From a virus, in the IMG/VR virus record IMGVR_UViG_3300019889_000020, positions 1 through 49,691 of that record: a DNA stretch of 49,691 bases. The stretch is one strand, 5' to 3'. Shown here piece after piece: positions 615 through 49,400 of this stretch (positions are counted from its first letter, which is position 1; each line of letters begins with the position of its first letter). A program made the translations under genes and the position numbers. The notes beneath the pieces are model-generated. The model was not told the origin of the DNA. It saw nothing but the letters and a program-made list of their open reading frames with translations, and ran no database searches.

Positions 615-700
615 CAGGTATCCATTTTTAGGGAATACATATCTAATAGAGAAGATGCATTGAATCGACTGCACAAGCTCAAAAGTGAATTTCCCATTTT

Positions 701-735
701 TCAAAATTCAAAATTCAAAATTCAAAATTCAAAAT
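701..735. repeat. Heptamer array TCAAAAT, five copies
   Basis: Five consecutive TCAAAAT units form an AT-rich, easily melted tract, followed by a degenerate sixth copy. A core copy of the dispersed palindrome (TCTATTAGA, 767-775) lies 30 bases downstream. Arrays of short AT-rich direct repeats occur in replication origins, but also in neutral spacers. Confidence 0.85.
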
Positions 736-773
736 TCAATTTTCAAAAATTTACGTTTCGTAAAAGTCTATTA

Positions 774-808
774 GATTTCCTGTGGCCGCTTCGCGGCGAT
801 TTCCTGTG
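774..808. repeat. Hairpin flanked by 11-bp direct repeats
   Basis: GATTTCCTGTG occurs at 774-784 and again at 798-808. Between them lies exactly GCCGC-TTC-GCGGC (785-797), a tight GC hairpin. The precise abutment looks like a small insertion cassette with duplicated flanks, or a structured binding site. No gene is present. Confidence 0.7.
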
Positions 809-882
809 AAAAGCCTTCAGATCGACTATGATTTTCACACTTTCTGGACTGAAAATGTGCCAGAAATAATCCTCCATTTTGC

Positions 883-911
883 TGAAAAAATCCTGAAAAT
901 GACCGTATACT
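883..911 (+). promoter_or_regulatory. Conserved phage promoter, rightward (virion genes)
   Basis: TGAAAA (883-888), a 17-base spacer and TATACT (906-911), with ATGACCG directly before the -10. The 17 bases at 898-914 recur exactly, inverted, at 42238-42254, and in near-identical form at 42565-42580. The three copies head the three transcription units and point the right way each time. This one drives the virion genes starting at 1027. It may be read by the phage sigma factor at 37703-38269 or by a host sigma-70 factor. Confidence 0.75.
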
Positions 912-1026
912 ATCATAGCAGTGGGCTGTAGCATGCCGTGTGGCACGCCGTGTGGCACAAATCCGGTCCAAAAAACGTGAAACTCGTCAACGTCGGAACG
1001 GTGAAACTCTAATAGAGGCAACCCTT

Positions 1027-1383: not shown

Positions 1384-1407
1384 CACCTCACGCTAACTAA
1401 GGAATTT

Positions 1408-2085
1408 ATGGGAACGCTATCCAAACTCCTAATTTTGGCGGCACTCTCTCTTGGCCAAATTGAAGGCCCGGATAGCGTTCCCACCCACCAAATTGCCACC
1501 GTAACTACCGATGTGGTAGCGGACGGTTATATTTGGTTCGTTTTTCCTATCGAACCAAATACCGAAGCTCTCCAATCCAATCCCAAAGTTTTCCAATTTA
1601 CTGGCAGTCCCGGGGTACATCAAGTTTCTCTAGTGCCATTGAAAGATGGCATTCCCCAAGGGAAATTTTGGAAAACGGTAACCTTTGGCCCAACGGGACC
1701 TATTCCACCTCCGGGACCCACTCCCCCGCCACCTCCTCCAGGGCCAACTCCTCCTCCAGGGCCATTACCTCCGCCCACTCCCATAACGGAACCTGTTCAT
1801 GTCACTTTGATCTATGATATGGATAGGATAGCCACTTCACGGCCGGCGGTAGTAAGCAACTTATCTATTAGAGAAGCTGCCAAGAAATTGAATATCTTTT
1901 GGCGAACTTATGATGATTCGTCATCTGATCTCATTCCGTTGAAGATTCTCCCCACCATTGAAAAAATTGGTGTTCCCGCTCTTGTTATCCAACGTACCAA
2001 TGGAACTGTGATAGATGTTCTTCCCTGCCCAGCCACTCCGAATAGCGTGATTGATCTCTTTAACGTTATTAGAGGTAATCCGTAA
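1408..2085 (+). CDS. Secreted, proline-rich protein with thioredoxin-like C-terminus
   Basis: The start is supported by AAGG five bases before the ATG. The first 20 residues are a signal-peptide-like stretch (KLLILAALSLGQ). Residues 20-95 form a beta-rich domain, about 96-130 a Pro/Gly-rich linker with long runs of prolines, and the rest looks like a thioredoxin fold, with VPALVIQ as a possible cis-proline strand. No CxxC pair is visible, so redox activity is doubtful. It fits an exported structural or host-surface-interacting protein. Signal plus beta domain plus proline linker is a common design in planctomycete secreted proteins. The fold call is tentative. Confidence 0.65.
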   Translation: MGTLSKLLILAALSLGQIEGPDSVPTHQIATVTTDVVADGYIWFVFPIEPNTEALQSNPKVFQFTGSPGVHQVSLVPLKDGIPQGKFWKTVTFGPTGPIPPPGPTPPPPPPGPTPPPGPLPPPTPITEPVHVTLIYDMDRIATSRPAVVSNLSIREAAKKLNIFWRTYDDSSSDLIPLKILPTIEKIGVPALVIQRTNGTVIDVLPCPATPNSVIDLFNVIRGNP

Positions 2086-2090
2086 ATCCT

Positions 2091-2945: not shown

Positions 2946-2969
2946 TTCTCTATTAGATTCGAGGAGTCG

Positions 2970-3548: not shown

Positions 3549-3572
3549 CTCTAATAGAGTTAGTTGATCCTA

Positions 3573-5228
3573 ATGCACTCTATCGAGAAATTGATTACGA
3601 GAAAGATACATGAGGGACTTTCCCGGAAAGCATTAACAAAATGCAGCGAATGGGCCAGTCGATATAGGGTGATGGGTGTTCCTTATCCAGGAAAATGGAC
3701 ATTCGATCATCACCCTTGGCTCCGGGATATGCACGACAGTGATGCCGAAATGAATATCGGCCAAAAAGCAGCCCAAATGGGCTATACCGAAACCGTATTG
3801 AACCGTGTTCTTTTCAATATTGATATGAGGGCGATAGATTGCCTATACCTTCTACCAAGTTGGAAACCCGATGCCACAGACTTTTCGTCGGGCCGTTTTA
3901 AAGCGGCTATTGAACTCTCACCTCATATCTGTGACGTATTTTCTGACGTTTCTAATGTTGGTCATAAGCGTGCTGGTCTGGCTAACCTTTATATTCGTGG
4001 TAGTCATTCCCGATCTCAATTGAAATCTATTCCTGTCGGTCAGATCGTCATTGATGAAAAAGACGAAATGACTCAGGAAAATGTTCCACTGGCATTTGAG
4101 CGTCAAAGTGGCCAAGTTACTCGTGAAACATGGCAAATTAGCACCCCAACAGTTCCAGAATTCGGCATTAACGCTGATTTTATTAGATCGAGTCAAAACC
4201 ATTTCTATTTTACGTGTCCAAGTTGCTCACGTTTCGTTGAACTTGAGTTTCCTGGCTGTTTGGTAGTGACTGCCGATAGCTTAATGGACCCTTCTCTAAA
4301 AGATTCGCATGTAATTTGTCCCCAATGTAAGGCGAAATTGCCCCATGAGACGAAAAAAGAGTGGTTAGGTAACGCTAAGTGGATTGAAAGCTTTTCACAA
4401 CGTGATTGGAAAGGCTGGTATATCAATCAACTGTACTCAATTAACTTGGAACCTTGGAAAATAGCGGAGACGGCTCTCAAAGCTCAAACGAATCCCGCCG
4501 AGGAACATGAATTTTGGAACTCCAAGGGCGGTCTTCCTCATATTGTCACAGGTGCGGGTGTTACAGATGCCGATCTCATAGCTTGTATCTCTAGCTACCG
4601 CCTTTTCGCCAGTTACAATGGTAATCGTGTAGTTACAATGGGCATTGACGTTGGTTATCCTAACTGCCATTACGAAATTGATGAATGGTTACTGCCTCCG
4701 GCGGGAACTGCGATAGTTGATATCAATCAGTATGCTAAGCCTCGGATACTTTCCATTGGAACAGTACCTACTTTTGCTGAAGCCGGTACTCTATTAGAGA
4801 ATTTTCGAGTGAACTTTTGTGTAGTGGACGCCCAACCTGAACGTCGAGCAGCTTTGGAATTTGCTAACAAGTATTATGGTAAAGTTCGCCTCTGTACCTA
4901 TGAGCAAGGTATCACTGGAAAGTCAATTCACACTGATATACATGAGCCCCGAGTGAAAGTTGATCGTACTAGCTGGCTCGATCTCTCCTTAGGACGTTTT
5001 AAGTCGCGAACTATCAGGATTGCTGCTGATATGCCCGAGGAATGGAAATCTCATATCAAAAATCAGGTTAGAGTATATGAAAAAGATAGAGCCGGAAATC
5101 CAACAGGCCGATATATCACCCCCACGGGTGAGGATCATTTCGGGCACGCTCGAAATTACGCTGAAATTGCACTCCCTCTTGCCTGTGAAATGGCCGCACC
5201 CATCAATATTGAAAGTTCAGTCTTCTGA
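3573..5228 (+). CDS. Terminase large subunit (GpA-like)
   Basis: This is the packaging motor ATPase/nuclease that translocates and cuts phage DNA. An N-terminal ATPase region shows QKAAQMGYTE, followed by a Walker B-like IVIDEKDEM and the coupling motif STPT. A zinc ribbon (CPSC and CPQC) follows, then an RNase H-type nuclease beginning at MGIDVG with a later VVDAQPE. This order matches GpA/lambda-type large terminases. A TTG at 3564 would add three residues; the ATG at 3573 follows a perfect palindrome copy (3549-3559) by 13 bases, and neither start has a strong Shine-Dalgarno. Another palindrome copy lies inside the gene (4789-4799), read as LLE. Confidence 0.9.
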   Translation: MHSIEKLITRKIHEGLSRKALTKCSEWASRYRVMGVPYPGKWTFDHHPWLRDMHDSDAEMNIGQKAAQMGYTETVLNRVLFNIDMRAIDCLYLLPSWKPDATDFSSGRFKAAIELSPHICDVFSDVSNVGHKRAGLANLYIRGSHSRSQLKSIPVGQIVIDEKDEMTQENVPLAFERQSGQVTRETWQISTPTVPEFGINADFIRSSQNHFYFTCPSCSRFVELEFPGCLVVTADSLMDPSLKDSHVICPQCKAKLPHETKKEWLGNAKWIESFSQRDWKGWYINQLYSINLEPWKIAETALKAQTNPAEEHEFWNSKGGLPHIVTGAGVTDADLIACISSYRLFASYNGNRVVTMGIDVGYPNCHYEIDEWLLPPAGTAIVDINQYAKPRILSIGTVPTFAEAGTLLENFRVNFCVVDAQPERRAALEFANKYYGKVRLCTYEQGITGKSIHTDIHEPRVKVDRTSWLDLSLGRFKSRTIRIAADMPEEWKSHIKNQVRVYEKDRAGNPTGRYITPTGEDHFGHARNYAEIALPLACEMAAPINIESSVF

Positions 5229-5273
5229 TAATCATCCACATTGCCATACCACTATATCTAATAGAGAAACATA

Positions 5274-7100
5274 ATGCCCGTAAGTGCTGTTCCCAATATT
5301 GAACCGAAAGTTGGCCGAATTTGTGATGTACTACATCCATTTTATCGGCGTTGGGTCAATAGTTGGCGGAAATGGCGACTTACTTATGAGGGCGGTGATG
5401 CATTTATACACAAATATCTTGTTAAATTTTCTAATAGAGAGAACGATAAGGAATTTCAGCAGCGAAAACGTCTCGCTTATTGCCCCGCCTTTGCCAAAGC
5501 AGCCATTTTCGAGATCCGAAATGCCGCTTTTAAGCGATCTGGTGATATCCATCGTGAAGGAGGAACATCTTCCTACCAAAACGCAGTAAATGGCAAGGAT
5601 AATGGAGTTGATCTCGAAGGTTCGGATATGAATTACTTCATGAACATCAAAGTTCTTGAAGAACTTCTACCGATGCAATATGTTGGCATTTTCGTTGATA
5701 TGCCCGCCGATGTTGGCCCTTCTCTATTAGAGGCGAAAGATAAGCGTCCTTATATTTACATTTATCAGGTTGAGGATATCCGTTCGTACACAAAAGACCC
5801 TTATGGCAAGCCTTGGGAATACTCTTCTGTACTTTTGATGGATCATACTTACATTTATGATCATGAAACCAATCTCCCTACCGATGAATGCTCCCGTTAT
5901 CGCTATCTTTATCTGAAAGCTACTGAACAGGGCCAGCGTGTCTTCGTAAAATATTATGATCATCATGGAAGACCAATAGATGCCAATGGTATTTCCGTAG
6001 AGGAAACCTATGAGCAACAAGTTGGCAATTTGCAGAAAATTCCCTTTATCCTTCTTAAGATTAGCCATTCACTGCTCGCTGACGTGGCAAATTACCAAAT
6101 TGCGTACCTTAATTTGGCTTCTGGAGACATTTGGTACGGATCGCGGGCCAATTTCCCGTTTTACATTGAACCATTTGATCCTAAAAGTCAATCACCTTAC
6201 GTTAAACGTACCGGGACTGATGAGTTCGATGCCACTGATCCTGAAACGTCTGTTATTACTACAACAACGTCAGATGAAATCACTGTTGGTCCGACCCGTG
6301 GACGAAGGTACGTTACCGGAACGAATCAACCGGCTTTCATCCATCCCTCGTCGGAGCCTATGAAGGCTTCGATGATGAAACAGGATCAGCTTAAGGCTGA
6401 AATCCGCCAATTGGTCAATTTATCCTTAGCGTCTCTTAATCCGGGGTTTGCCTCAGCGGAGAGTAAAGGTGTCGACGAACATTCCCTCCAAAATGGGCTT
6501 AGTTACCTCGCAACAGTTCTTCAATACGCTGAGAACCGCATTGGTTACTTCTGGTCACTCTATGAGGGAAGTAAGAGTTTCCCTGAAATCCAATACCCTG
6601 AGCAGCATCAATTTCTTTCCCCTGAGCAAATTGACAAAGAGATCAAAACTCTAGTAGAGTTGATCGACAAAACAACCTCGCTTACTTTGAAAAAGCGCTG
6701 CATGAAAGTGATAGCGGAACTGAAAATTGCCGAATATGTCACAATGGTTGAACTCAAGAAAATTTATCAGGAAATTGATAATGCCGATGTCGTTATCGGT
6801 GATGCTCTTAATATCAAGAACGATATTGAAAGTGGCATTGTCTCTCTAGGGACGGCTAGCAAGGCTCGTGGTTATCCTGATGGCGAAGTTGAAAAGGCCG
6901 CCAAAGATCATGCCGATCGTATAGCCAGAGTGATGGTGGCCCAAACTGATGCTCCAACTGATGCTGTTGATGACAAAAAGGCTCGTGGTGTACCTGATCT
7001 ATCTGGTAATCCTGCCAGTGGCCGTGAAGAAAAAGCTGAAGTGAAGGACCCGACCACTAAGACTGAACCAACTGATCCAACTAGAGGTCCTGGTAAATAA
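5274..7100 (+). CDS. Portal protein
   Basis: This 608-residue protein directly follows the terminase. It has the expected size and layout of a siphovirus portal: an N-terminal region, a large alpha/beta core with YIYIYQVEDIRSY and a crown-like helical C-terminal third (from about residue 370), ending in a charged low-complexity tail rich in Lys, Asp and Pro. The portal forms the dodecameric DNA channel at the capsid vertex. The ATG lies seven bases after a palindrome copy whose AGAG probably serves as the ribosome-binding site. Two further copies are inside the gene (5430 and 5722), read as SNRE and LLEA in different frames. Confidence 0.85.
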   Translation: MPVSAVPNIEPKVGRICDVLHPFYRRWVNSWRKWRLTYEGGDAFIHKYLVKFSNRENDKEFQQRKRLAYCPAFAKAAIFEIRNAAFKRSGDIHREGGTSSYQNAVNGKDNGVDLEGSDMNYFMNIKVLEELLPMQYVGIFVDMPADVGPSLLEAKDKRPYIYIYQVEDIRSYTKDPYGKPWEYSSVLLMDHTYIYDHETNLPTDECSRYRYLYLKATEQGQRVFVKYYDHHGRPIDANGISVEETYEQQVGNLQKIPFILLKISHSLLADVANYQIAYLNLASGDIWYGSRANFPFYIEPFDPKSQSPYVKRTGTDEFDATDPETSVITTTTSDEITVGPTRGRRYVTGTNQPAFIHPSSEPMKASMMKQDQLKAEIRQLVNLSLASLNPGFASAESKGVDEHSLQNGLSYLATVLQYAENRIGYFWSLYEGSKSFPEIQYPEQHQFLSPEQIDKEIKTLVELIDKTTSLTLKKRCMKVIAELKIAEYVTMVELKKIYQEIDNADVVIGDALNIKNDIESGIVSLGTASKARGYPDGEVEKAAKDHADRIARVMVAQTDAPTDAVDDKKARGVPDLSGNPASGREEKAEVKDPTTKTEPTDPTRGPGK

Positions 7101-7659: not shown

Positions 7660-7690
7660 TCGTTTCTCTATTAGAGTCGAGTAGGAACCT

Positions 7691-10336
7691 ATGGCACAGA
7701 CGCTCAGTGGAACTGGTATCGCACATTATCTATCTCGTGCCGATGGCGATGCATCCAATGCTTCCACTTGGGCTGTAGTTGATCCACTTTCTTTTCAGGA
7801 CCTTATTAGTTCCAATGGAATAGGAACTTTTTTCGACGAATCCTCACTTTCGACAAGTAGTCAGACAACTTATAAAAAGTCTGTTATACCTTGGACATAT
7901 ACCTCTTCGCCGCCGACAATTGATGGTATTGCGCTTAAACTGAATAGTCATACAGGAGTGGGAACCCTAACAGTAGCATTGGATATAGCCAATGTTGATG
8001 TTGCAGGCACCGTAGTAACATGTAATCTTACTGATCTTCCTGCAACCGGCTGGTTTTTCCTGAAGTTTGCGGCTCCCGTTACTTTATTAACGTCGACTTA
8101 TACAGTTAAGTTTAAAACTTCTGTCAATGGTACCGTTACCTTAAGATGTTCCGGTGGCAGTGTATTTCCGCAACTTTTACGCACAACGACTACCGGAGTA
8201 CCCCAGGCAACTTTGACGCAAAGAGATAATCTTTATATCATGGGGGAGATTACGGGAGCAGGTGCAATATCTAATAGAGTTGTGACCTGGGATATTACCG
8301 CTAATAATTTTCCTTATAATTCAATTACCGTCAGCTCCTATGCAACAGTGAATCTTGAGAATGCTCCCAGCAACGATTATTATATGCATTCACAATGCGA
8401 TATTCGTATCTACGCTGGCGGAATAATGAACATTGGAACTATAGGTACTCCTGTTGATGTAACTTCGACATTTACGGTCACATTGCATCCAACGACGACA
8501 AGTACCCTTACTTCCTTTGTCGTTATCACTGGTGGCACTTTAAATTGTTATGGTTCACCGAAAACGGTAAAGACTCACCTGACAGCCAATGCCAGTGCAG
8601 CGGCGACCTCAATCACGGTAGATGATGCTACAGGTTGGGAAATTGGTGATCAAATTGCTTTAGCGGGTACGGGAACGGTATATTCGGATTGTGAACAGGT
8701 TGTAATTACTTCGGTTTCCGGAACAACGATTGGTATCGCTCCATTAGCACATGCACATTTGGGTACAATACCGAGACAAGCTGAAGTTATTAATCTTACA
8801 CGAAATATACGTTTTGTAGGTTTCTCTTCAACTTCCAAAGCATCTTTTGCAAATATGAATGGTAATCTCTTAGGTCAAACTCCTTTTAGTGGCTCCACAG
8901 TTTTACGTTATGTTGAATTTGGAACATTTATGGGTTTGACTGGTGCAGATACAAGTGCAACCCTTTATCTTAATAGTTATACCAATGGCATTGATATTCA
9001 ATATTGCTCAATTCATCATGGAGCATCAAGTGTAATTGGCGTGTATATTGACGTGCTCAGTGGACCCATTACATTTGCAAATAATGTCATTTTTGATTAT
9101 AGAGATAATCATTTATTAACTAATTTATCAGAAGCTTTTACAGGAACGTTGGCTGTTGATTCTAATGTCTTCATGTATAATCCCACTAGCACGAATATGA
9201 TAGTTTGGGGATTATCAGAACCCGCGACATTTACCAATAACTATCTTATCGGAGAATGGGGTAGTATAACCGGATGCTTCCTTGAGATTAAGGCTCAAGG
9301 TCTTGTTGGTACAATGACTGGTAATACGATACATTGTTCATCAGCTTATGGTATCAATGTAACAACAGTACAAGTTACTAATTATTTTCAGTGGAACTCT
9401 GCCACTTGGATAATTTATGATGTAACAAATCTATTAGAATTTAGCACCATACTAGTACCTGCAATTGTTAGCATTAATGGTATGACTGCTTTTAATTTTA
9501 CAAATGGTATCTGGTTCAAAAAGCATTTTGTTGGCGATTTTTATGCTAACGCATTGTTTTTTGATGATGGTACTTATGGTATCTTATCAGATGCCCTTAA
9601 TAATTCTGTTTCAGGAATGCTAATTGATAACAGTGAATTTTCATCAATGACGTCTGCGGATATCGCATTTATTGATCCAACAATCATCACCATGCTATTA
9701 CGTAATACAAAATTACTCTCAACCATCCCGATTTTTGGTCAAGCGAATATGCTTGGTGGTAGTACGATACGTGCAAGTCGTCATCAACAAATTGACGGTA
9801 ACTATAGTGAATGGAGACCTCAAGGTATAGAAACACCGGATTCGGTTATTTACGATGGGCTGGCTCCCTCTATTAGAGTTAAGCCTAGTGGCTATGCAAC
9901 TTGCAACCCTTTTTACGTAGCTGTAGGTAATGGGCATTCGCCCACCGTCTCTGTGCGAGTTAGAAAGAGTGTACTTGCCGATCCTAGTGGACAAGCTTAC
10001 TCTGGACCACAACCGCGATTGATTATGGTACATGATCCAGGTGTAGGTGTTACTACAACCACTATTCTTGCAACCATGACAGTCGGTAATGGTACTTGGG
10101 AAACTTTAATAGCAGCAATTCCGGCAGCAGTTGGTAATTGCGTTTACCAATTCCTTGTTGATTGCGATGGTACAACGGGTTGGATCAATATTGATAATTT
10201 CACCACAACTGAATCAGGTTCTGATACAGGAGCTATGAATTTCGCTTTCAATGGTCGATCCTTCGTTGCCCTTGGAAGTGGTACTAATACTGTTGTTCAC
10301 GTACCAATACCTATGATTCGGAAAAAGGTAATATGA
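7691..10336 (+). CDS. Large fibre-like protein with G8-like domain and beta-helix
   Basis: An 881-residue virion protein. The N-terminal 180 residues look like a beta-sandwich attachment domain. Residues about 200-380 resemble a G8-type domain: repeated GGTLNCYG/GGIMNIG strands, then ATGWEIGDQIAL and AEVINLTRNIRFVGFSS, the pattern found before right-handed beta-helices in secreted carbohydrate-active proteins. The following region (about 380-690) is rich in N, G and short strands, as in a parallel beta-helix. The last 170 residues resemble a lectin-like sandwich. A receptor-binding or capsule-degrading spike is likely. The gene is more AT-rich than its neighbours. Confidence 0.7.
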   Translation: MAQTLSGTGIAHYLSRADGDASNASTWAVVDPLSFQDLISSNGIGTFFDESSLSTSSQTTYKKSVIPWTYTSSPPTIDGIALKLNSHTGVGTLTVALDIANVDVAGTVVTCNLTDLPATGWFFLKFAAPVTLLTSTYTVKFKTSVNGTVTLRCSGGSVFPQLLRTTTTGVPQATLTQRDNLYIMGEITGAGAISNRVVTWDITANNFPYNSITVSSYATVNLENAPSNDYYMHSQCDIRIYAGGIMNIGTIGTPVDVTSTFTVTLHPTTTSTLTSFVVITGGTLNCYGSPKTVKTHLTANASAAATSITVDDATGWEIGDQIALAGTGTVYSDCEQVVITSVSGTTIGIAPLAHAHLGTIPRQAEVINLTRNIRFVGFSSTSKASFANMNGNLLGQTPFSGSTVLRYVEFGTFMGLTGADTSATLYLNSYTNGIDIQYCSIHHGASSVIGVYIDVLSGPITFANNVIFDYRDNHLLTNLSEAFTGTLAVDSNVFMYNPTSTNMIVWGLSEPATFTNNYLIGEWGSITGCFLEIKAQGLVGTMTGNTIHCSSAYGINVTTVQVTNYFQWNSATWIIYDVTNLLEFSTILVPAIVSINGMTAFNFTNGIWFKKHFVGDFYANALFFDDGTYGILSDALNNSVSGMLIDNSEFSSMTSADIAFIDPTIITMLLRNTKLLSTIPIFGQANMLGGSTIRASRHQQIDGNYSEWRPQGIETPDSVIYDGLAPSIRVKPSGYATCNPFYVAVGNGHSPTVSVRVRKSVLADPSGQAYSGPQPRLIMVHDPGVGVTTTTILATMTVGNGTWETLIAAIPAAVGNCVYQFLVDCDGTTGWINIDNFTTTESGSDTGAMNFAFNGRSFVALGSGTNTVVHVPIPMIRKKVI

Positions 10337-10803: not shown

Positions 10804-12168
10804 GTGCCCTATGTCTTGGGTCAAAGTTTTCCGAGACCCTTTGCAGGGTACACTTACCCGCGTAAAAAGCGAGACTACTTTCCCGCAGCTTCGCCGACCA
10901 CTCGAATTATCAATGAGGCAATTAGTCACAGTGTTGCAGTTACAGATTCCATTTATCTTGGTCGTGTGCTACTTCGGCATATCGTTGATACGGTTACTGT
11001 CAGTCAAATAGTTACAAGGATTGGATTTGTCTATACCGTCTCGTTAGCACATGATGTTACAGTCTCCCACTCTATTAGATTAAACAGAGTATATTTCAAA
11101 AGTGTTATTCATAATGTGACAGCTGATCAGAATATGAATCAGCAACTTATCATTGTCCACACTGTCACGGTAACTGATGAAATCGTTGTTAATAAGATCA
11201 TTAATCGTAATATAGTTGATAATGTCGCAGTGACTCATGCCAATTTTATTAGTTCGCCAAGATTCATTTCTCTATCAGACACGGTATTAGTTACCGATAT
11301 AGTATATGGGAGATTAGGAACTTATCATTTGGAAATCGTGGATACTGTCACTGTTACAGATTTTATTAGTGAACGTTTAGGTACTTTTCGGATTTCTCTA
11401 GAAGATACGGTGACTGTTAATCAGATCGTTCGCCCAATTGATGCCATCTATACTCATAGCATTGTTGATAATGTCACAGTTACCGATAAGATTAATACCG
11501 TTTGGAATAAGCATATTGTCCATGATGTAGCAGTTACACAAACAATAAGTGCTAAAAGGCATATTACCAGAACGATTAGTACCCTTGATATTATCAGTGC
11601 CATTGGCAAGCAAGATGAAACTTTTGAACTGGTAGAGAGCGATCTAGTATTTTCTGAATTTACTTGCAATCTGGACATTCTCCGCGATTTTGAGGATAGT
11701 TCAATCAATGATGATATTCTCAATGCCACTTTATTCATTCCTAACCCAGGGCCGCATCCGCCAGTACCAGGGATACCGACAAGTTATGGCTTCCTAACTC
11801 TATTAGAGACGATCTATGGATCAATCATACTACCATTACCGGAGTTGAATGATACTCAAAAGAACAATGACACAATCAATGTTCGGCGGTCGATGGCTGG
11901 CACGCTCCATGCGTACATTAAGCGAGTTCCTACGCAAACGCTCCAATATAGTTTTATCCTGGATTATCCGAAAGCACTTGAACTCAAGGCATGGGTAAGA
12001 ACGAACTTTGCACAATTTATCAAGTTAACGAATTTCAAGGGTGAAATCTGGCAAGTGAAAATTCTCAATGACGATCTCAATTTGGTTAATGAGAGTCGCT
12101 ATTCCGGTAACGCTCGGCAAAAGACAACCGTCACTCTAGAATTCGAGGGAGTGAAAACAAGTGGGTAA
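10804..12168 (+). CDS. Repetitive beta-rich virion protein with DTVTVTD repeats
   Basis: GTG start after GGGGTAA. Residues about 35-270 hold some ten imperfect units of about 25 residues built on (H/D)(D/N)TVTVTD followed by a hydrophobic strand, resembling repeat regions of adhesins and fibre shafts. The C-terminal 130 residues form a separate compact domain (LHAYIKRVPTQTLQYSF onward) ending in TVTLEFEGVK, reminiscent of head- or tail-surface domains. The repeats probably form an extended stalk. Palindrome copies at 11070 and 11798 are in the gene and encode SIR and LLE. No enzymatic motif is visible. Confidence 0.7.
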   Translation: MPYVLGQSFPRPFAGYTYPRKKRDYFPAASPTTRIINEAISHSVAVTDSIYLGRVLLRHIVDTVTVSQIVTRIGFVYTVSLAHDVTVSHSIRLNRVYFKSVIHNVTADQNMNQQLIIVHTVTVTDEIVVNKIINRNIVDNVAVTHANFISSPRFISLSDTVLVTDIVYGRLGTYHLEIVDTVTVTDFISERLGTFRISLEDTVTVNQIVRPIDAIYTHSIVDNVTVTDKINTVWNKHIVHDVAVTQTISAKRHITRTISTLDIISAIGKQDETFELVESDLVFSEFTCNLDILRDFEDSSINDDILNATLFIPNPGPHPPVPGIPTSYGFLTLLETIYGSIILPLPELNDTQKNNDTINVRRSMAGTLHAYIKRVPTQTLQYSFILDYPKALELKAWVRTNFAQFIKLTNFKGEIWQVKILNDDLNLVNESRYSGNARQKTTVTLEFEGVKTSG

Positions 12169-15767: not shown

Positions 15768-16029
15768 GTATGGTTATTGCGAGGGCCATTACAAACGTAC
15801 TACTGTTATTTAGTCTCGTTTTTAATGGCCTGTTAATATATTTCATGTATCATGCGAGTAGAAATCAGAAAAGTCTCCTGAGTAAGTTACTTGTTGAACT
15901 TGCTAAATTGAAAGATGTTCTTACAAAAGTTTACGAAAGAAAAAGTGAAGAGCTTAATGAGCTAATGTCACTTAATTTAAAGACACAAACTCTATTAGAG
16001 TCTTTGATTGAAAAGGCGGAAAATAAAAA

Positions 16030-16033: not shown

Positions 16034-18566
<2,533 letters not shown>

Positions 18567-18854: not shown

Positions 18855-18870
18855 TCTATTAGAGAAACCA

Positions 18871-19422: not shown

Positions 19423-19469
19423 ACAGGACACCTTCCTTTAAGGAGCGACTCTATTAGAGTCGGAACGCA

Positions 19470-21440: not shown

Positions 21441-21470
21441 CGGCTACTCTAATAGAGAAACGCGGTAACA

Positions 21471-25968: not shown

Positions 25969-25995
25969 CGGCTACTCTAATAGAGAAGGGGAAAG

Positions 25996-37508: not shown

Positions 37509-37527
37509 CTTACTTTCCTTGAATCTA

Positions 37528-37713
37528 TTAGAGAAGTGTATCAACTGAAGCAACTAACTCGTCAAAAGCCAGATCGGCTTTCCTGCATAGGTCCTCGAAA
37601 CCTGTAAACTCCTTATCCAATCGTTTGTACTCTTTCATGTCGCGGCGTGCCCTAACATATGCCTTGGCGGCGGTAATGACTCGATCTTCTTTTTTGAAAA
37701 ATTTAAAGAGCAT
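37528..37713 (-). CDS. Hypothetical helical protein (61 aa)
   Basis: 61 residues from ATG 37713, which overlaps the end of the sigma-factor gene by 11 bases; GAAG lies upstream. Lys-rich and probably wholly helical (EDRVITAAKAYVRARRDMKEYKRL). It may be an accessory protein of the sigma factor or primase, but this is only positional. Confidence 0.55.
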   Translation of the reverse strand: MLFKFFKKEDRVITAAKAYVRARRDMKEYKRLDKEFTGFEDLCRKADLAFDELVASVDTLL

Positions 37714-39634: not shown

Positions 39635-39693
39635 GTTACTTTTACTTAAAAATGAGCCATCCGTGGCTCTTAGGGCTGGCTCTAATAGAGAAA

Positions 39694-40314
39694 TCAACGG
39701 AAGTTGAGTGTCCAGTAGGAACCGATACCGGCCAATCCGATCGCTGTGACGGATGGATCAAGCATTGCTGCTCGATGTGGCGGTGAATTCATCCATTGGC
39801 CACCGATTGTGGCAGGTGAGCCCATTGCCGCGTTTTGGCGTCGAGCAGGTCCCATAACGAAGTGACCTAGCCCACGTCCCTGACAAGCGGCACTATTCCG
39901 ACTAGCCCAATTGGCTAGGTTTTGATCCCAACCTACGGGTCGAAGACCTGCTCTTGCTCTAATAGAGTTGAGCCAGGACACGAAAGAGGGCACCTGTGGG
40001 CGAGGAGCAGGCTTAACCTTGCGTTCAACACGCCACATTCCCTTGTAATCGCCGGATTGGATTTGGCTACCCCAACCAAAAAGGCCCTGTTTGGTAAGCC
40101 AAACCCATCCCTTTGGTCCCAATTCTTCACCATTGACGGTGGTAGTAGGAACCTTCTCCAAGTTTGAGGAAGCTACCAATTTGTAATCATCCGGGTAAAC
40201 GGGAGCGTGACGTACCTGAGGAGGGTGAACGGGAGCGTAATGTACGGGAGCGTAACATTGCCCATTCGCACACTGTTCAGGGGCTAACAGGGCGAGGAGG
40301 AGAATCAACTGCAT
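39694..40314 (-). CDS. Secreted CAP-domain protein
   Basis: 206 residues from ATG 40314 (AGGAG six bases upstream; ATG 40317 is an adjacent alternative). A signal peptide (MQLILLLALLAPEQCANG) is followed by a Tyr/Pro/Val-rich spacer (APVHYAPVHPPQ). Residues 125-206 form a CAP/SCP fold: FVSWLNSIRARAGLRPVGWDQNLANWA, a short GHFVMGP segment, IGGQWMNSPPHRAAML and IGLAGIGSYWTLNF. Host-surface interaction or wall-associated roles are typical. The N-terminal style is common in planctomycete exported proteins. Confidence 0.75.
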   Translation of the reverse strand: MQLILLLALLAPEQCANGQCYAPVHYAPVHPPQVRHAPVYPDDYKLVASSNLEKVPTTTVNGEELGPKGWVWLTKQGLFGWGSQIQSGDYKGMWRVERKVKPAPRPQVPSFVSWLNSIRARAGLRPVGWDQNLANWASRNSAACQGRGLGHFVMGPARRQNAAMGSPATIGGQWMNSPPHRAAMLDPSVTAIGLAGIGSYWTLNFR

Positions 40315-40636
40315 CATGCTCTCCTGAATTTTCTTTGTCCCACAGTGCTTGCCACTTGGCAAGTTTCACCGGGGCCATCGCGTATAGTTCTTCTAACGTT
40401 CCGCCGCGAAGGATATACATTTCAAGGCAACATAACATAACGTCGATCATTTCAATTCGGCTACTTTCTCTAATAGATTTGTATTTGTAAAGAGGATCAC
40501 GATCTTCAATTCGGGCCGCTTGACAGAATTCGCCTAACTCGCCATTGATAGCCGCTAAAATATCCCATTTTCCGATCTTATTGGCGTTAGCACGATGAAT
40601 ATTTTCAACTTGCCTGAAAGTCACTGGATCAATCAT
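40277..40636 (-). CDS. MazG-like nucleotide pyrophosphohydrolase
   Basis: 119 residues. The helical core carries the MazG/dUTPase-like metal pattern: GELGEFCQAARIED, with a later SRIEMIDVMLCCLE, the E-x2-E...E-x2-D arrangement that binds magnesium. Such enzymes hydrolyse NTPs or alarmones and help phage replication. The ATG has AAGG upstream and overlaps the preceding stop as ATGA. The 3' end overlaps the CAP-protein gene by 38 bases. Confidence 0.65.
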   Translation of the reverse strand: MIDPVTFRQVENIHRANANKIGKWDILAAINGELGEFCQAARIEDRDPLYKYKSIRESSRIEMIDVMLCCLEMYILRGGTLEELYAMAPVKLAKWQALWDKENSGEHDAVDSPPRPVSP

Positions 40637-41298: not shown

Positions 41299-41309
41299 TT
41301 GAACCTCTA

Positions 41310-41726
41310 TTAGAACCATTTGTACCAAAGTGAGATTTCGCGGCGTGCTGCTATCTCGTCCGCAGAGCCGTGAATGGCGTTTTTCATGGAATCGACCATA
41401 TAAAGGTAACGAATTGTATCAGGTGCAGGCTCGGAATAGTTCCCCATAAGGGTACGGAACGCGGAAAAGACATGGTTGGGCTTCTTTTTCATCGTGAGCG
41501 TGCCAATTATGATGGGCGTATGCGTGTACATGCTCGCTATTAGATTTTCATAGAAGTCTTTTCCCTTATGTTCACCATAATGTGACTCTAATAGAGAAAA
41601 TTGGGGTATTAACATGGATAAATTCGTGACAGTGAAGCCTTTTTCCTCTATTAGAGAAATGATCTTTCCTGATAAAGAGCGTTGAATGGCATCCGGCTTG
41701 ATAATGAAGAATGTTTGTGGCAACAT
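41310..41726 (-). CDS. ndk: Nucleoside diphosphate kinase
   Basis: 138 residues from ATG 41726 (GGGG upstream). The fold signature is complete: TFFIIKPDAIQRSL at the N-terminus, SHYGEHKGKDFYENLI, DTIRYLYM and the catalytic His119 in NAIHGSADEI. The usual GTIRGDF is altered. The enzyme moves phosphate between NTPs and dNDPs; with the dNMP kinase in this unit it completes a dNTP-supply pathway. Two perfect palindrome copies lie inside (41586 and 41646), and a GCTATTAGAT near-copy at 41537. Confidence 0.85.
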   Translation of the reverse strand: MLPQTFFIIKPDAIQRSLSGKIISLIEEKGFTVTNLSMLIPQFSLLESHYGEHKGKDFYENLIASMYTHTPIIIGTLTMKKKPNHVFSAFRTLMGNYSEPAPDTIRYLYMVDSMKNAIHGSADEIAARREISLWYKWF

Positions 41727-42099: not shown

Positions 42100-42240
42100 A
42101 CCTGTTCCTTTTCTCTATTAGATTCGCCATTTGGCAGATGATCGTTCATTTCTCTAATAGATTCGCTTAGCATTAGATTAGAGAAATTGATCGAGTGCAT
42201 GCATTCAAGCAGTCAATCACGGTCTGAGAGGTCCCCCGAT

Positions 42241-42578: not shown

Positions 42579-42713
42579 ATATGGGGAAACCACATGGCTG
42601 GCGAAAAGGTGTCTTTTCGCTGATTTCTCTAATCTAAAGGTAGGCGAATCTATTAGAGAAATCGGTCAAAGGCTTCAGCGACCGAATCTAATAGAGAAGT
42701 CAGAGGGCAGACA

Positions 42714-43790
42714 ATGGCAACGGCATCGGCGACAAACAATGCAACTGGGAACGCTTTCGAGAATGCGAAGTTCGAGCTGCGTGCGGCTCCAATGGACAAG
42801 ATCAGGCTGGGGAAATACTCTCTGAGAGAAGTTGATCGCAACTCGGAGAAGTACCAGCGTTTGCGGGACGCCATTGCGGCCACTAATGGCCCAATGCTTC
42901 CCATCCTTCTTCGCGAAATTGAGGACCCTGATAACAAGGGGAAGAAGGCTCTTGGCCTTATCGACGGACTCCAACGCTACTCGTGTTGTCTCGATCTCGG
43001 GTTCAAGACGATTCCGGCTCGCATCATTGACATGGACGATGCCCAGGTCGCAGCGGCCCAGATCATCGCGAACCATTCCCGGATCGACACCAAGCCGGTT
43101 GAGTACACGCAACAGCTTCACCGCATGTTGAACGCTGATCCTACCCTGACTCTAGAAGAGTTGAGCGATCAACTGCATTGTTCGGTGAAGTGGCTTCAGG
43201 ATCGGCTCAGTTTGGCCAAGCTTCATGAGAAGATCGGCCCCCTGGTGGACAACGGTGATATCTCCTTGGCTCACGCCTTCGCTCTCGTCAAGCTCAAGCC
43301 CCCGGAGGAGCAACTCCAGTTCGTTGAGCAGGCTCAGACGCAGACGATCCAGGAGTTCTCCGGCCACGTCACGAACCGGGTGAAGGAACTGAGAGAGGCG
43401 GCTCGTACTGGCCGCATCCCGAGTGACAAGGCGGCTTTCCAGGCTGTCCCGCACATGAGGGCGGTCAGGGAGATCAAGGCACAACTGGAAAGTCCGACCC
43501 TCGCTCCTGCTATCGTCAAGGACATGAAGGCCACCACTCCCGAGGAGGGATTTGCGGCGGGCGTCGCTTGGGTGTTGAACATGGACCCGAAGTCCATCGA
43601 GATTTCCAAGCAGCAGGCCGAGGATCGCAAGAAGGAGGATGAGGTCAAGAAAGAAGCCAAGAAGAAGGAGAATATCCGGAAGCGTGCGGAAGCGGCTCGT
43701 GCGGCTGCGGCTGACGCTGGCATCTCCTTGGAGATGAACGCGAACGAGGGTGAGGAAGAAGACGAAGACGAGGATGAAGACGACGAGTGA
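42714..43790 (+). CDS. ParB-like protein 1
   Basis: 358 residues. The N-terminal ParB/Srx-like domain has LREIEDP, LIDGLQRYSCCLDLGFKTIPARIIDMDDAQ and ANHSRIDTKPVEYTQQL. A following helix-turn-helix, LTLEELSDQLHCSVKWLQDRLSL, matches the KorB/ParB type. The C-terminal third is a charged helix ending in a long Glu/Asp run. ParB proteins bind palindromic sites, and two palindrome copies sit in its leader, 18 and 56 bases before the ATG. Composition is more GC-rich than nearby genes. The usual ParB CTP-pocket motif (GERR) reads DGLQRY here. Confidence 0.8.
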   Translation: MATASATNNATGNAFENAKFELRAAPMDKIRLGKYSLREVDRNSEKYQRLRDAIAATNGPMLPILLREIEDPDNKGKKALGLIDGLQRYSCCLDLGFKTIPARIIDMDDAQVAAAQIIANHSRIDTKPVEYTQQLHRMLNADPTLTLEELSDQLHCSVKWLQDRLSLAKLHEKIGPLVDNGDISLAHAFALVKLKPPEEQLQFVEQAQTQTIQEFSGHVTNRVKELREAARTGRIPSDKAAFQAVPHMRAVREIKAQLESPTLAPAIVKDMKATTPEEGFAAGVAWVLNMDPKSIEISKQQAEDRKKEDEVKKEAKKKENIRKRAEAARAAAADAGISLEMNANEGEEEDEDEDEDDE

Positions 43791-43887
43791 AGGGCATTGT
43801 TTCCTGATCGGATTCAATGATCCAGTTTCTCTATTAGATGCCGTACACGGCCTATTAGATGCGGCCTCCCTGTGATTGGGGCTCACA

Positions 43888-44438: not shown

Positions 44439-45191
44439 ATGGCACGAGACAAGGGCGAAGTGCAGACGCTCACTAACCGTGAAGTTGGAACGATAGAGGA
44501 TAATCTTCCGGGTATCATCGACCCGAAGACGTTCTCAGTTCCGGCGATCGAAAACCCGTACAGTGAAGATTTCGCATCGTTCACAACGGGATTGTTCCTG
44601 CCGAGGTTGCAGCTTGAAGGAAGTTCTTCCAAGTTGGTGAAGAATCGGAAAGTTTCCGCTGGAAACTATATCATCATCACGGGCAAGGATGCTTTCGAGG
44701 TTCTCGGAGAGAAGATTGACATCTTGGTTCTAACATATCGGTCGAAAGCACTCGATCTGTCCGATACCAAGAACATTGTCGCCTCGTTCGACAAGAACTC
44801 CGAAGAATTTCGGCGTATCCAGGCCGCGGCTCAACAGAAGTCGAAGGGCTACCTTTACGGGCTCGATTTCCTCTGCTACATTCCCGACTCTAAGGGAGAA
44901 ACGAAGTACGCCAGTCTTTTCATGGGCAATCCGACCTTTCGCATGGCTGCCCGCAACTTCAAGCCGCTGATCGGTAAAGCGGTCACAATGGGTGTTGAAC
45001 TTATCAACAACACCGAATACACCTGGGAAGCTCCCACGATCGTGGCATGTAGCACTCCATTGAGCAACTATCCCTCGGCAGAGGAGATGGCGGCTCAAAT
45101 GAAGGATTTCGTGAACCCACCCAAGGGTCCGGTGATCGAGCGTGTCTCTGATGAGGAAGCTGTCGCCGCTGGCACCGACCGCGATCGGTAA
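44439..45191 (+). CDS. Conserved phage protein, possible ssDNA-binding role
   Basis: 250 residues, ATG after AAGGTTAAGTAAA. A compact mixed fold: LPRLQLEGSSSKLVKNRKVSAGNYIIITGKDAFEVLGEKIDILVLTYRSKALDL, then a middle helix and MGNPTFRMAARNFKPLIGKAVTMGVELI. The acidic C-terminus resembles tails of single-stranded DNA-binding or recombination proteins, but the family is not certain. Its position between ParB and helicase genes suits DNA metabolism. The gene is GC-richer than average. I would call it unknown if pressed. Confidence 0.55.
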   Translation: MARDKGEVQTLTNREVGTIEDNLPGIIDPKTFSVPAIENPYSEDFASFTTGLFLPRLQLEGSSSKLVKNRKVSAGNYIIITGKDAFEVLGEKIDILVLTYRSKALDLSDTKNIVASFDKNSEEFRRIQAAAQQKSKGYLYGLDFLCYIPDSKGETKYASLFMGNPTFRMAARNFKPLIGKAVTMGVELINNTEYTWEAPTIVACSTPLSNYPSAEEMAAQMKDFVNPPKGPVIERVSDEEAVAAGTDRDR

Positions 45192-45242
45192 TCGTAACGG
45201 CCCTGTCCTTCACAAAACCGGATTGTGATGTGGCAGGACTGG

Positions 45243-45272: not shown

Positions 45273-45296
45273 TACATCCATTTAGAGAAAGTGATT

Positions 45297-46197: not shown

Positions 46198-46411
46198 TAT
46201 AACGCACTATTGTCATTGGCCTGGTTGTCGCACACCAGTTTCACCAAAGTTATGGGGATGTAAGCGACATTGGTATGCTCTTCCGAAGGAATTACGCAAC
46301 AAAGTTTGGGATGCCTATGTTCCAGGGCAAGAAATCCGGAAGGACCCAACTGGAGAGTATATGGATGTGATGGCTGAACTTTACGCATGGATCAAAGCCA
46401 ATGGCGGGTAG
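46190..46411 (+). CDS. Small zinc-finger protein of phage type (73 aa)
   Basis: 73 residues. CHWPGCRTPVSPKLWGCKRHW is a C-x4-C-x9-C-x2-H zinc site followed by a helix (LPKELRNKVWDAYVPGQEIRKDP), a pattern seen in many phage and prophage small proteins of unknown function. It may mediate nucleic-acid or protein contacts. Overlaps its upstream neighbour, suggesting coupled translation. Confidence 0.7.
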   Translation: MGDITHYCHWPGCRTPVSPKLWGCKRHWYALPKELRNKVWDAYVPGQEIRKDPTGEYMDVMAELYAWIKANGG

Positions 46412-46570
46412 CATTCTCTGATAGCGTTCGGCTACATTGATGATCCCCAATCATCAGGGTTGATCGCCGGTCTCCGGGCGATTTAAAATCCGGGAGACAA
46501 AAAATAGGAGGACCTGGGTGATGATGGGATCACTTGGCAAATCCAATCTCTATTAGAGAAAGTGAAAACT
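46412..46570 (+). other. Intergenic leader with stem-loops before the helicase gene
   Basis: About 160 bases. Short arms pair around ATCATC/GATGAT (near 46439-46458), ATCGCC/GGCGAT (near 46462-46481) and CTCC..GGAG (near 46473-46498), so the leader is probably structured. A perfect palindrome copy (46548-46558) lies 12 bases before the helicase ATG. Confidence 0.5.
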
Positions 46571-48487
46571 ATGCCAGTTGTATCAATGATTTCTGTCAGT
46601 GGCCGTCACAAGTACAAAAAGGAAGTAGATATCAATTCTACTGGAAGAGGGACATTACAACTTGAGTTCGATTATGACGAATATCTCAAGGATGAAGTAA
46701 AGGCAATGGATGGTGCCAGATGGAATCCAGATATTAAAAGTTGGATTGTTAAGGATACTCCAAGGAATTGGTTTCAACTTCGTTTCCTCATGGGAGAGAA
46801 TCCTTATACTTGGTATGATGCTCCTCTAGTAGAGTTTGTTAGTCGGGTCGATACGATCTATCCGCAACAAATCCAAATGGTCAGGGAAGGACTGACCTAT
46901 CGGCAGATGATCTGGGCGGCGGAAATGGGCTTAGGCAAGACGCTTGCCGCTATCCTGATGATCGAGGAAGCTCTTGAACGTTGGAATTTTCGGAAAGTTT
47001 GGTGGGTTGGACCTAAGTCCGCTCTGGCCAGTTTCGAGGTTGAAGTGGCCACTTGGGGCATGCTTAATCTTCCCGAGAAGATCATGACCTATGAGGAGTT
47101 AGTCAAAACGGTAAAGAATTGGCCTCCCGGATTAAAAGCTCCTCAGATCATTATCTTGGATGAAGCTAGTCGTTGCAAAACGCCTACTACGCAACGAACA
47201 CAATCCGTCATGGAAGTTACTAAGGGAATGCGAGAAGATTATGGTGAAAATGAGCCATTCATTATCGAGATGACGGGAACTCCTGCTCCCAAGAGTCCAT
47301 TGGATTGGTATTCGCTTTGTGAAGTAGCCAAGCCCGGATTCATTCGCGAAGGCAATATACATAAGTTCCGGGATCGGTTGGGCGTAGTAGAAAAGCGAGA
47401 GTCTCCAGCGGGCGGGGTGTATCCACATACCGTAACATGGAGAGATAGCGAGAATAAATGTCGTCATTGTGGTTCCACTCGGGAGGAACATGATTTCGAT
47501 GTGATTGCGCGAGAGGGTATCGCACATGAGTTTCAACCAGGAATAAATGAGGTCGCAAAACTCTATAAGAGAATGAAAGGACTAGTTTCCGTTTACTTCA
47601 AGAAGGACTGGCTATCCTATCTTCCGGACAAACAGTATCGTATCCTTCGTTGCAAAGTTAGTCGGAGCACAGCCAATGCAGCATCATCTATCCAATCTAA
47701 TGCAAAACGGGCCGTAACGGCTCTTACTTTGCTCCGAGAGTTATCTGATGGATTCCAATATTCCGATATCGAAGAAGGCACCACGTCCTGCCCTCTTTGT
47801 CTTGGGTCGAAAAGGACAGAAGTTCCATTTGTCCTGGACGAATCAGGCAAGATGGAACTTCGAGAAGTTGAATGTACCAATTGTAGTGGCGAAGGAGTTG
47901 TCCCCAAATCTATTAGAGTAACTAACTCAGTAGCATGCCCAAAGGATGACATTTTAGAAAGTATTCTCGATGATCATGAAGATGGGCGATTGGTCATCTA
48001 TGCTGGATTTACTGGCTCTATTGATCGTATTGTTACATTATGCTTGCGTAAAGGTTGGGGCACGATTCGTGTCGACGGACGAGGATGGGAATCCTCACTC
48101 CCAGTCTCTGCCGATGTAAAGCAATCTTTACCGAAGAAACTATTGGATGTTTTCCAGAGAAAAGGTAAATATCCTATAGGATTTGATGAAAAGATCGCAT
48201 TTATTGGTCATCCGGGCTCGGCGGGAATGGGAATCACATTGACAGCGAGCAATGAAATCGTCTATTATTCCAATGATTTCAATGCGGAAAGTAGAATTCA
48301 ATCCGAGGATCGTATTCATCGTCCAGGGATGGACCTAAACAAGGGGTGTATGATCACTGATATTGTCCATCTCCCTTCGGACATAGTTGTCTTGAAGAAC
48401 CTCAAGGACAAGCGTAGACTCCAAGACATGAGCTTGGGTCTTTTCCATGAATCTATGAAGATGGCCGATGAAGATCGTTTGCTTTAA
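46571..48487 (+). CDS. SNF2-type helicase with internal zinc ribbons
   Basis: 638 residues from ATG 46571; GTG 46562 would add three. Motif I is AAEMGLGKTLAA (K123), motif II IILDEAS, motif III MTGTPAP and motif VI QSEDRIHRPGM. A short N-terminal segment, VKAMDGARWNPDIKSWIV, resembles the HARP domain of SMARCAL1-like annealing helicases. Zinc-like clusters follow: CRHCG, CPLC and CTNCSGEG. The protein would remodel or unwind DNA during replication or repair. Palindrome copies lie at 46548 (leader), 46824 (variant) and 47909. Confidence 0.85.
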   Translation: MPVVSMISVSGRHKYKKEVDINSTGRGTLQLEFDYDEYLKDEVKAMDGARWNPDIKSWIVKDTPRNWFQLRFLMGENPYTWYDAPLVEFVSRVDTIYPQQIQMVREGLTYRQMIWAAEMGLGKTLAAILMIEEALERWNFRKVWWVGPKSALASFEVEVATWGMLNLPEKIMTYEELVKTVKNWPPGLKAPQIIILDEASRCKTPTTQRTQSVMEVTKGMREDYGENEPFIIEMTGTPAPKSPLDWYSLCEVAKPGFIREGNIHKFRDRLGVVEKRESPAGGVYPHTVTWRDSENKCRHCGSTREEHDFDVIAREGIAHEFQPGINEVAKLYKRMKGLVSVYFKKDWLSYLPDKQYRILRCKVSRSTANAASSIQSNAKRAVTALTLLRELSDGFQYSDIEEGTTSCPLCLGSKRTEVPFVLDESGKMELREVECTNCSGEGVVPKSIRVTNSVACPKDDILESILDDHEDGRLVIYAGFTGSIDRIVTLCLRKGWGTIRVDGRGWESSLPVSADVKQSLPKKLLDVFQRKGKYPIGFDEKIAFIGHPGSAGMGITLTASNEIVYYSNDFNAESRIQSEDRIHRPGMDLNKGCMITDIVHLPSDIVVLKNLKDKRRLQDMSLGLFHESMKMADEDRLL

Positions 48488-48518
48488 GCGATCTAAATCT
48501 AATAGAGAAAGCACAACG

Positions 48519-49400
48519 ATGAGCACGACACTTGAAATGGGCCGTAAGATTGTCAAAGTTCCGATGAACAAGATCAAGCACATTGACGAGCACAACTGTC
48601 GGGGACGGGTACAGCCACAGGATTGCGTTACATTGGCTGCACGCATCCGTACCGAAGGGCTGTTGTACCCTATCCAGATTGCCAAACTTCGGGAACCTGA
48701 GGGTGAGTACGAATATGAGATCATCGCCGGTTTTCGCCGTTTCATGGCACACCGGATCAATGAAGCTGAAACGATTGAATGCGAAATTCTATCAGATTCG
48801 CTATCGGAAGCGGATAAGGCCGTTATTAATTTAACGGAGAATCTTTCCCGAGCCGATTTGAATATCCTCCAGGAAGCCGCAGGACTTGATCGAATCAAAC
48901 GTCTCCGTTCTATGACGCAAAAAGAGTTAGCCGATACCCTAGGCGTGTCACAGAAGTGGGTCCAGATTCGGCTCTGGTCCCTGGAACTTGAACAGCCAAT
49001 CCAGGAAGATATTCGAAAAGGTTTCCTAAAACAACAGCACATCGAACAACTCAAAGCTCTCCCTGCTGGCGCGAAGCGATTTGCTTACGTCAAGCAGGTC
49101 AAATCGGCCCAGCTCTCCAATGAGAAGCCTCGTGTCTCATTAGCAAAGAAGAATCCGTTCTCAAAGAAAAGGCGAGAGCGGGTAGAAATCTTTGAGATGC
49201 AAGATCATCTATTAGAGTCGCTCGGCGGGGGAAGAGTTGACAAACTCCCCGAGAACGCTCGTCTGATTTTGCAGGCACTCGGTTGGGCTGCTGGGGAGAC
49301 AACAGATATGGAAATGTACGGGACTCTTCGTGCGATTGCGAAGAAGAATGGGTTGCATTATGAAATACCAGAGTCAGCAATGTCAGCCCTCCAAGGATGA
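48519..49400 (+). CDS. ParB-like protein 2
   Basis: 293 residues from ATG 48519, 11 bases after a palindrome copy whose AGAGAAAG is the likely ribosome-binding site. The N-terminal domain has KVPMNKIKHIDEHNCRGRVQ, GLLYPIQIAKL and YEIIAGFRRFMAHR, the ParB box whose usual form is GERR. It then has NLTENLSRADLNILQEA and a helix-turn-helix, MTQKELADTLGVSQKWVQIRL. A basic linker and helical C-terminus follow. With protein 1 it gives two different ParB-type DNA-binding proteins in one unit and no ParA in the window. Confidence 0.85.
   Translation: MSTTLEMGRKIVKVPMNKIKHIDEHNCRGRVQPQDCVTLAARIRTEGLLYPIQIAKLREPEGEYEYEIIAGFRRFMAHRINEAETIECEILSDSLSEADKAVINLTENLSRADLNILQEAAGLDRIKRLRSMTQKELADTLGVSQKWVQIRLWSLELEQPIQEDIRKGFLKQQHIEQLKALPAGAKRFAYVKQVKSAQLSNEKPRVSLAKKNPFSKKRRERVEIFEMQDHLLESLGGGRVDKLPENARLILQALGWAAGETTDMEMYGTLRAIAKKNGLHYEIPESAMSALQG

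Follow-up and report, generated by a model that had tools for sequence, protein, structure and literature searches.

Clamps of the ParB family are known from chromosome and plasmid segregation, from nucleoid occlusion and from a few regulators. Among them, Noc nucleates at scattered Noc-binding sites (NBS), some 70 in number (PMC4331003), and forms complexes of about 1-2 kb (PMC4331003; PMC8429893), and sliding takes KorB as far as 1.5 kb from its operator (PMC11790492). A 2025 survey of the ParB-CTPase fold covers phages and orphan ParBs; no mention of genome-wide sites was found in its passages on phages (PMC12704722). Here we analyzed the IMG/VR record IMGVR_UViG_3300019889_000020, whose 49,691 bases make up the entire window and which, judging by its sequence, is the genome of a tailed phage. 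It is filled with copies of a short palindrome, TCTAWTAGA, and encodes two ParB-family proteins (ParB1 and ParB2) that flank a helicase and both carry a helix-turn-helix (HTH) domain. The sequence-only reading, made from the letters of this DNA, had named the stoperators of mycobacteriophages as the nearest concept; Noc and its NBS proved closer. We propose that ParB2 is a Noc/ParB-like cytidine triphosphate (CTP) clamp that is loaded at the palindromes and coats the phage genome, and we put the probability of this at roughly two in three.

An exact count gave 58 TCTAWTAGA sites in the window, with start positions 642..49208 and T (35 sites) or A (23 sites) as the central base; 21 of them are the full 11-mer CTCTAWTAGAG. 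These are precisely the two numbers that the sequence-only reading had obtained by hand. Six further sites have the form TCTASTAGA, and TCTATAGA has zero occurrences in the window by exact count. Markov models of order 1-4 predict a mean of 0.4-2.3 TCTAWTAGA sites (maximum 8), and synonymous-codon shuffles inside genes yielded 1.1 +/- 1.0 (maximum 4) versus 42 observed in genes, so protein coding cannot explain the sites, as had been claimed. Their presence both within and between genes was also confirmed: 15 of the 58 are intergenic versus 4.9 expected from a non-coding share of 8.4%, an approximately threefold enrichment, and about three quarters are intragenic (43 of 58 fall outside intergenic DNA). 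Inside genes the sites occupy two reading frames (SIR/SNR and xLLE/xLIE); in the third, which is never seen, the motif would bring in a TAG stop.

In a scan of all gapped palindromes, TCT-N3-AGA was found at 99 sites in the window. The same arms at other spacings occur 5-17 times each (typically about 11), with exceptions at N5 above all and at N11-N12 (20-22 sites); the N5 count is raised by the C/G flanking the TCT-N3-AGA sites themselves. The invariant core is a pair of half-sites with a fixed 3-bp spacing, TCT-N3-AGA. The 9-mer, which had been taken as the core, stands as the commonest form of the motif, but the repeated unit is the inverted half-site. The centre is mostly AWT in the window phage and almost free in the close relative described below; both have one spacing only. 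The flanks lengthen the motif to about 15 bp, weakly WWCTCTAWTAGAGWW, and other palindromes of the same letters showed no comparable enrichment.

The strict sites run along the whole window. The full 11-mer is present as CTCTAATAGAG at 1008..1016 and, between genes, at 3550..3558, and as CTCTATTAGAG at 4790..4798; other intergenic copies lie at 7667..7675, 19450..19458, 21362..21370, 21448..21456 and 25976..25984, and further copies at 9869..9877, 12423..12431, 15045..15053, 15991..15999, 30283..30291, 39681..39689, 39958..39966, 41587..41595 and 41647..41655. The form TCTAATAGA is found at 642..650, 5257..5265 (intergenic), 16742..16750, 16829..16837, 30805..30813, 32377..32385, 35209..35217, 36111..36119 and 40469..40477. 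The form TCTATTAGA is found at 767..775, 1864..1872, 2949..2957 (intergenic), 9430..9438, 12871..12879, 13853..13861, 18855..18863 (intergenic), 22724..22732, 25576..25584, 26981..26989, 27361..27369, 27997..28005, 29704..29712, 31584..31592, 33536..33544, 37524..37532, 41306..41314, 47909..47917 and 49208..49216. One more intergenic site is at 43830..43838, and the remaining sites are given below, with the relative or with the ParB genes.

The close relative is represented by the contigs G002 (= L006) and G014 (= L138/L139), which come from the same metagenome and total 52 kb. Both are collinear with the window, with a nucleotide identity of 64-74% over matched segments, and this collinearity suggests that they belong to a single genome. 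The sequence-only reading had named two checks in related phages, the presence of the motif and synonymous conservation at the sites, and the relative showed both. It has 35 exact sites across the two contigs, and 138 TCT-N3-AGA versus 15.7 expected. In aligned genes, 21 of 56 window sites were retained at the same place, compared with 36 of 550 for the other 63 inverted triplets at the same spacing. Where the amino acid was unchanged, codons were identical in 72 of 111 cases (0.649) at sites and in 2450 of 5845 (0.419) elsewhere. Retention and synonymous codon conservation therefore indicate that the sites are under selection, and the 65 sites present only in the relative indicate that there is turnover as well. 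Among the strict sites, that at 5430..5438 is kept at the same place, as are those at 11071..11079 and, in full 11-mer form, at 5723..5731 and 20687..20695; at 8270..8278 and 11799..11807 (the latter a full 11-mer) the arms are kept. The recount, the codon shuffles and the comparison with the relative all came out in favour of the suggestion that the palindrome suits a dimeric DNA-binding protein.

Beyond this relative, we assembled the phage family from terminase-alignment relatives in IMG/VR (113 confirmed, 80 kept). No terminase relative was found in 84,980 bacterial and archaeal genomes, and in cultured phages the terminase identities were 22-24% among the matches listed. ParB1 had no match in cultured phages and ParB2 distant matches only; an iterated palindrome was not found in three ParB-bearing records, among them Gordonia phage Kiko. 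Most relatives have an iterated palindrome of their own, with other letters and spacings, GAT-N5/6/7-ATC being the commonest. Examples are TGATTN4AATCA in G047 (67 sites versus 0.1 expected), GATTN5AATC in G030 (66 versus 2.9) and AGTTANTAACT in G050 (58 versus 0.2); further words are TGTTAN4TAACA (G025), TAGTN7ACTA (G001), GATGN4CATC (L299, L339) and GATAN5TATC (L223). A motif was called in 65 of 82 non-redundant family contigs. A log-likelihood ratio of 25 was exceeded by 17 of 21 longer and 28 of 59 shorter family contigs; in a control set of 53 unrelated phage contigs, each 10 kb or longer, none exceeded it. Sixteen contigs, including G004 and G043, have both GAT-N6-ATC and GAT-N7-ATC at high counts, possibly reflecting two readers or one flexible reader.

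The candidate reader is encoded at the end of the window, in a module on the + strand. ParB1 (42714..43790) has a degenerate nucleotide pocket (DGLxR, with AN replacing EN), a long C-terminal helix and an acidic tail. It is followed by a conserved 250-residue protein to which no function is assigned (44439..45191), by a SNF2-type helicase (46562..48487) and by ParB2 (48468..49400), whose translation start, judged from the relative, is likely the ATG at 48519. The two ParBs occur together with the helicase, always between them, in 12 of 12 long distant genomes, and the 250-residue protein in 11 of the 12; in G025 the module runs across the contig end. ParB2 is the more canonical of the two ParBs. 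It scored above the cut-offs of PF02195, PF17762 and TIGR00180, and its best PDB matches, both by sequence and by fold, were Noc, with ParB, Noc and KorB as neighbours; against the curated Noc model TIGR04285 it reached 97 bits, under the cut-off of 315. Its CTP pocket is nearly invariant across 62 sequences: N and R of NxR, G and the second R of GxRR, and E, N and R of ENxxR are each present in 62/62, and the first R of GxRR in 61/62. Residues 1-24 of ParB2 are disordered in the structure model.

Across the 48 motif-called genomes, the similarity of the motifs correlated with the identity of the ParB2 HTH (0.50), more strongly than with any other part of either ParB. The partial correlation for the ParB2 HTH was 0.39 (p=0.002) when controlling for the ParB1 HTH and both N-terminal domains, and that for the ParB1 HTH was -0.02 (p=0.62). 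Alignment columns associated with the motif were over-represented in the ParB2 HTH (half-site, p=0.011; spacing, p=0.029) and not in the ParB1 HTH (0.51 and 0.46, respectively). From this covariation we infer that ParB2 reads the palindromes: its recognition of the sites is well supported by the covariation, its binding to them is very probable, and ParB1 is probably a partner. According to our reading of HMMER alignments, Q162, Q190 and E193 of ParB2 correspond to R173, G201 and R204 of Caulobacter ParB; two of the four residues responsible for switching between parS and NBS specificity are R173 and G201, and R204 makes contact with parS (PMC7383237). Of 44 GAT-type ParB2, 31 have R at the position equivalent to 173, as against 0 of 5 non-GAT ones; at that equivalent to 204, nearly all GAT6/GAT7 types have R or K and the two TCT phages have E. 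Irrespective of its letters, a site is present at the ParB1 5' end in 20 of 23 genomes (33 sites versus 9.2 expected). In the window, two sites lie in the divergent intergenic region upstream of ParB1 (42114..42122 and 42153..42161), two immediately upstream of its start (42649..42657 and 42687..42695), an intergenic full 11-mer (46549..46557) precedes the helicase gene, and one site (48498..48506) is 12 bp ahead of the likely true start of ParB2.

The palindromes would thus be nucleation (loading) sites for the phage-encoded ParB2, a dimer of which would read both TCT/AGA half-sites with its pair of helix-turn-helix domains. If ParB2 behaves like Noc, ParB and KorB, it would after loading close round the DNA with CTP and slide off the site, and the clamps would come to cover essentially the entire phage genome, forming a self-specific nucleoprotein coat on the intracellular DNA; taken separately, CTP clamping and coating by ParB2 are moderately probable. 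Sites are on average 496 bp apart, or 852 bp for the strict form, in line with the one per 850 bp noted at the outset, and the largest gap is 2.0 kb (strict form, 2.9 kb). Set against the reach of Noc and KorB, this spacing would allow loading to result in whole-genome coverage. The sites are spaced more evenly than random (P<0.05) in the window, where an even spread had been described, and in G004, G006, G003, G047 and G050, and not in the other genomes; the spacing test found no centromere-like cluster, the spacing being even or random. The module may also regulate itself, as suggested by the site at the 5' end of ParB1, and co-evolution of the ParB2 helix with the sites would account for the different words of different phages. 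Candidate benefits of a coat are genome organisation, nuclease shielding and separation of phage DNA from other DNA. A wider idea, which we hold to be tentative and rather doubtful, is a kind of viral "chromatin" in which the genome carries a private address code: each member of this uncultured tailed-phage family would mark its whole genome with a self-specific word read by its own ParB clamp, so that its DNA is coated and told apart from that of the host or of rival phages. If this is true, the family would contain many orthogonal ParB-site pairs, produced by co-evolution of the word with the helix that reads it.

Several results weigh against the clamp proposal. No clear palindrome could be called in 17 of 82 contigs, including G027 and G033, which exceed 50 kb and have both ParBs. 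Inspection of the sequences showed no obvious Noc-like N-terminal membrane helix in the ParB2 of the window and the relative. On the ParB1 tree only about four changes of half-site class were counted, the tree test by independent pairs and contrasts had too few cases to decide, and Mantel-type tests are open to inflation by shared ancestry. Whole-genome coverage by sliding is an extrapolation. Finally, the intergenic enrichment and the sites at the ParB1 gene also fit a regulator.

This last point leads to the alternative that survives best, though we consider it unlikely: the sites would be operators of a genome-wide regulator, with ParB2 silencing or pausing transcription like KorB, VirB or a stoperator repressor. 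Besides the roughly threefold enrichment between genes and the ParB1 sites in 20/23 genomes, it has in its favour that a related protein of the ParB fold, KorB, is a repressor whose site is palindromic. However, about three quarters of the sites are intragenic, their spread tends to be even rather than centred on promoters, and they are symmetric, unlike the oriented stoperators. Less plausible again is that ParB1, or both ParBs jointly, read the sites, the GAT-N6 and GAT-N7 classes corresponding to two readers. The HTH in both proteins, the 16 contigs with both spacings and the site enrichment at the ParB1 gene agree with this; yet the similarity of the ParB1 HTH adds nothing once ParB2 is included, the motif association is concentrated in the HTH for ParB2 only, and the window and its relative have a single spacing.

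ParB-family proteins and inverted-repeat sites would also be expected of a centromere system (ParABS) for the partition of a plasmid-like prophage with dispersed parS sites, and the phage-plasmid N15 does have several separate centromere repeats (IR1-4). We nevertheless regard this as improbable: a profile search for ParA (PF13614) found none in 15 records and was positive in all 14 control genomes, the dozens of sites are genome-wide without a cluster, and the terminase search returned no relatives from bacterial and archaeal genomes. Still more improbable is that the highly iterated palindrome has to do with DNA modification, as HIP1 does with methyltransferases in cyanobacteria. The density and dispersal of the sites resemble those of HIP1, which is associated with two orphan methyltransferases (PMC4390886), and ParB-fold proteins adjoin DNA-modifying enzymes in some phages (PMC12783734); but no methyltransferase was found among the approximately 30 window proteins scanned (some small open reading frames were outside the scan), and differences in the word go along with differences in the ParB2 helix. 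A purely random origin, or one in base composition or codon usage, can be dismissed, being contradicted by the Markov models, codon shuffles, control palindromes and unrelated phages.

Elsewhere in the window we identified a terminase (3564-5228), a portal (5274-7100), a major head protein (13704-15161), a tape measure (21977-25678) and a primase-like protein (34782-37553). Directly upstream of the phage packaging genes lies a papain-family cysteine protease (PF00112; 2091-2945), and at 16536-18566 a collagen-like tail fibre protein with many phrog tail-fibre matches. A 375-residue protein (38277-39404) has a weak C-terminal match, under the curated cut-off, to the Acb2/Tad1 hairpin domain of the sponge family that counters the cyclic oligonucleotide-based antiphage signalling system (anti-CBASS); the adjoining gene (37703-38269) encodes a phage sigma-70 factor of extracytoplasmic function (ECF)-like type.

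Other repeats were seen during the scans. A GGCCNNNGGCC signal in L006 is explained as a 7-bp tandem repeat; at L006 2047-2204 there is a tandem array of a 7-bp GGCC-N3 unit, with 22 steps. When all viral contigs were scanned for TCTAWTAGA pairs, most other dense contigs had tandem repeats or other motifs with flanks of their own, and therefore do not represent the same system. The phage contigs L043, L096, L083 and L103 have GTT-TCTAWTAGA-AAC, with other flanks, at 4-10 sites each, partly in close arrays. In G018 (L397/L398) and G023 (L399-L401) a directional 15-mer, CTCTAATAGATAACT, is repeated 20-24 times, with a single change of orientation, near 11 kb, as if it tracked transcription; HTH_ParB was not found in these contigs, and the TCTAATAGA core inside CTCTAATAGATAACT may be a coincidence or a sign of remote kinship. 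The sole ParB1 match in the host and prophage search was L402, an 11.4-kb contig that encodes a ParB1 relative and has GATAN5TATC 9 times versus 0.16 expected. It was binned in a Thioalkalivibrio metagenome-assembled genome, a binning that we do not trust; L402 is probably a phage of the same family as the window phage, and a possible hint of the host. L407 (OR846716.1 10000-55000), from a record named Listeria phage, has five copies of TTCACGTGAA, which we take to be the core of bacterial parS; it may therefore be bacterial DNA, and would in that case be a positive control for the palindrome scan.

The sequence-only reading knew of no described phage element with this sequence, and we found no account of a phage ParB system of this type in the literature searched, which mostly excluded subscription papers. 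The parts belong to a known superfamily; their use, a viral genome saturated with a phage-specific private word, appears undescribed. A genome saturated with loading sites, in a phage family with two orphan ParBs, would put ParB to a new use, as a virus-encoded coat for intracellular DNA, and the role of orphan phage ParBs becomes directly testable. The family also offers a natural series of readers and words, in which ParB specificity would have been rewired several times at positions that earlier work on ParB and Noc had mapped.

Compared with known systems, the window sites share with HIP1 of cyanobacteria the character of a highly iterated palindrome within and between genes; HIP1, however, is linked to methyltransferases, not to a ParB protein. 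Mycobacteriophage stoperators are likewise many repressor sites along a phage genome (PMC9283540), but they are asymmetric, oriented, mainly intergenic and served by an unrelated repressor family, whereas the window sites are symmetric and mostly intragenic. KorB with its OB operators, in plasmid RK2, is an orphan-type ParB-fold sliding clamp on an odd-length palindrome, as predicted for the phage clamp; the phage sites are far more numerous and dense and mostly intragenic, and no KorA-like partner was identified in the phage, where no search was aimed at KorA. Chromosomal and plasmid ParABS systems have in common with the phage the ParB fold with HTH, the palindromic nucleation site and the nucleotide pocket, and differ in that the phage has no detected ParA and its sites are genome-wide, not in one centromere region. 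The closest likeness is to Noc and NBS of Bacillus and relatives, again a ParB-family HTH protein reading a dispersed palindrome: Noc gave the best PDB matches to ParB2, the CTP-pocket residues are kept, and at the position of Caulobacter ParB 173 the window ParB2 has Q, as in Noc, where chromosomal ParB has R. Where Noc has some 70 sites in a bacterial chromosome (PMC4331003), the phages have 58-138 in approximately 50 kb; their ParB2 shows no obvious membrane helix and always has a second ParB alongside, and their word changes from one related phage to another.

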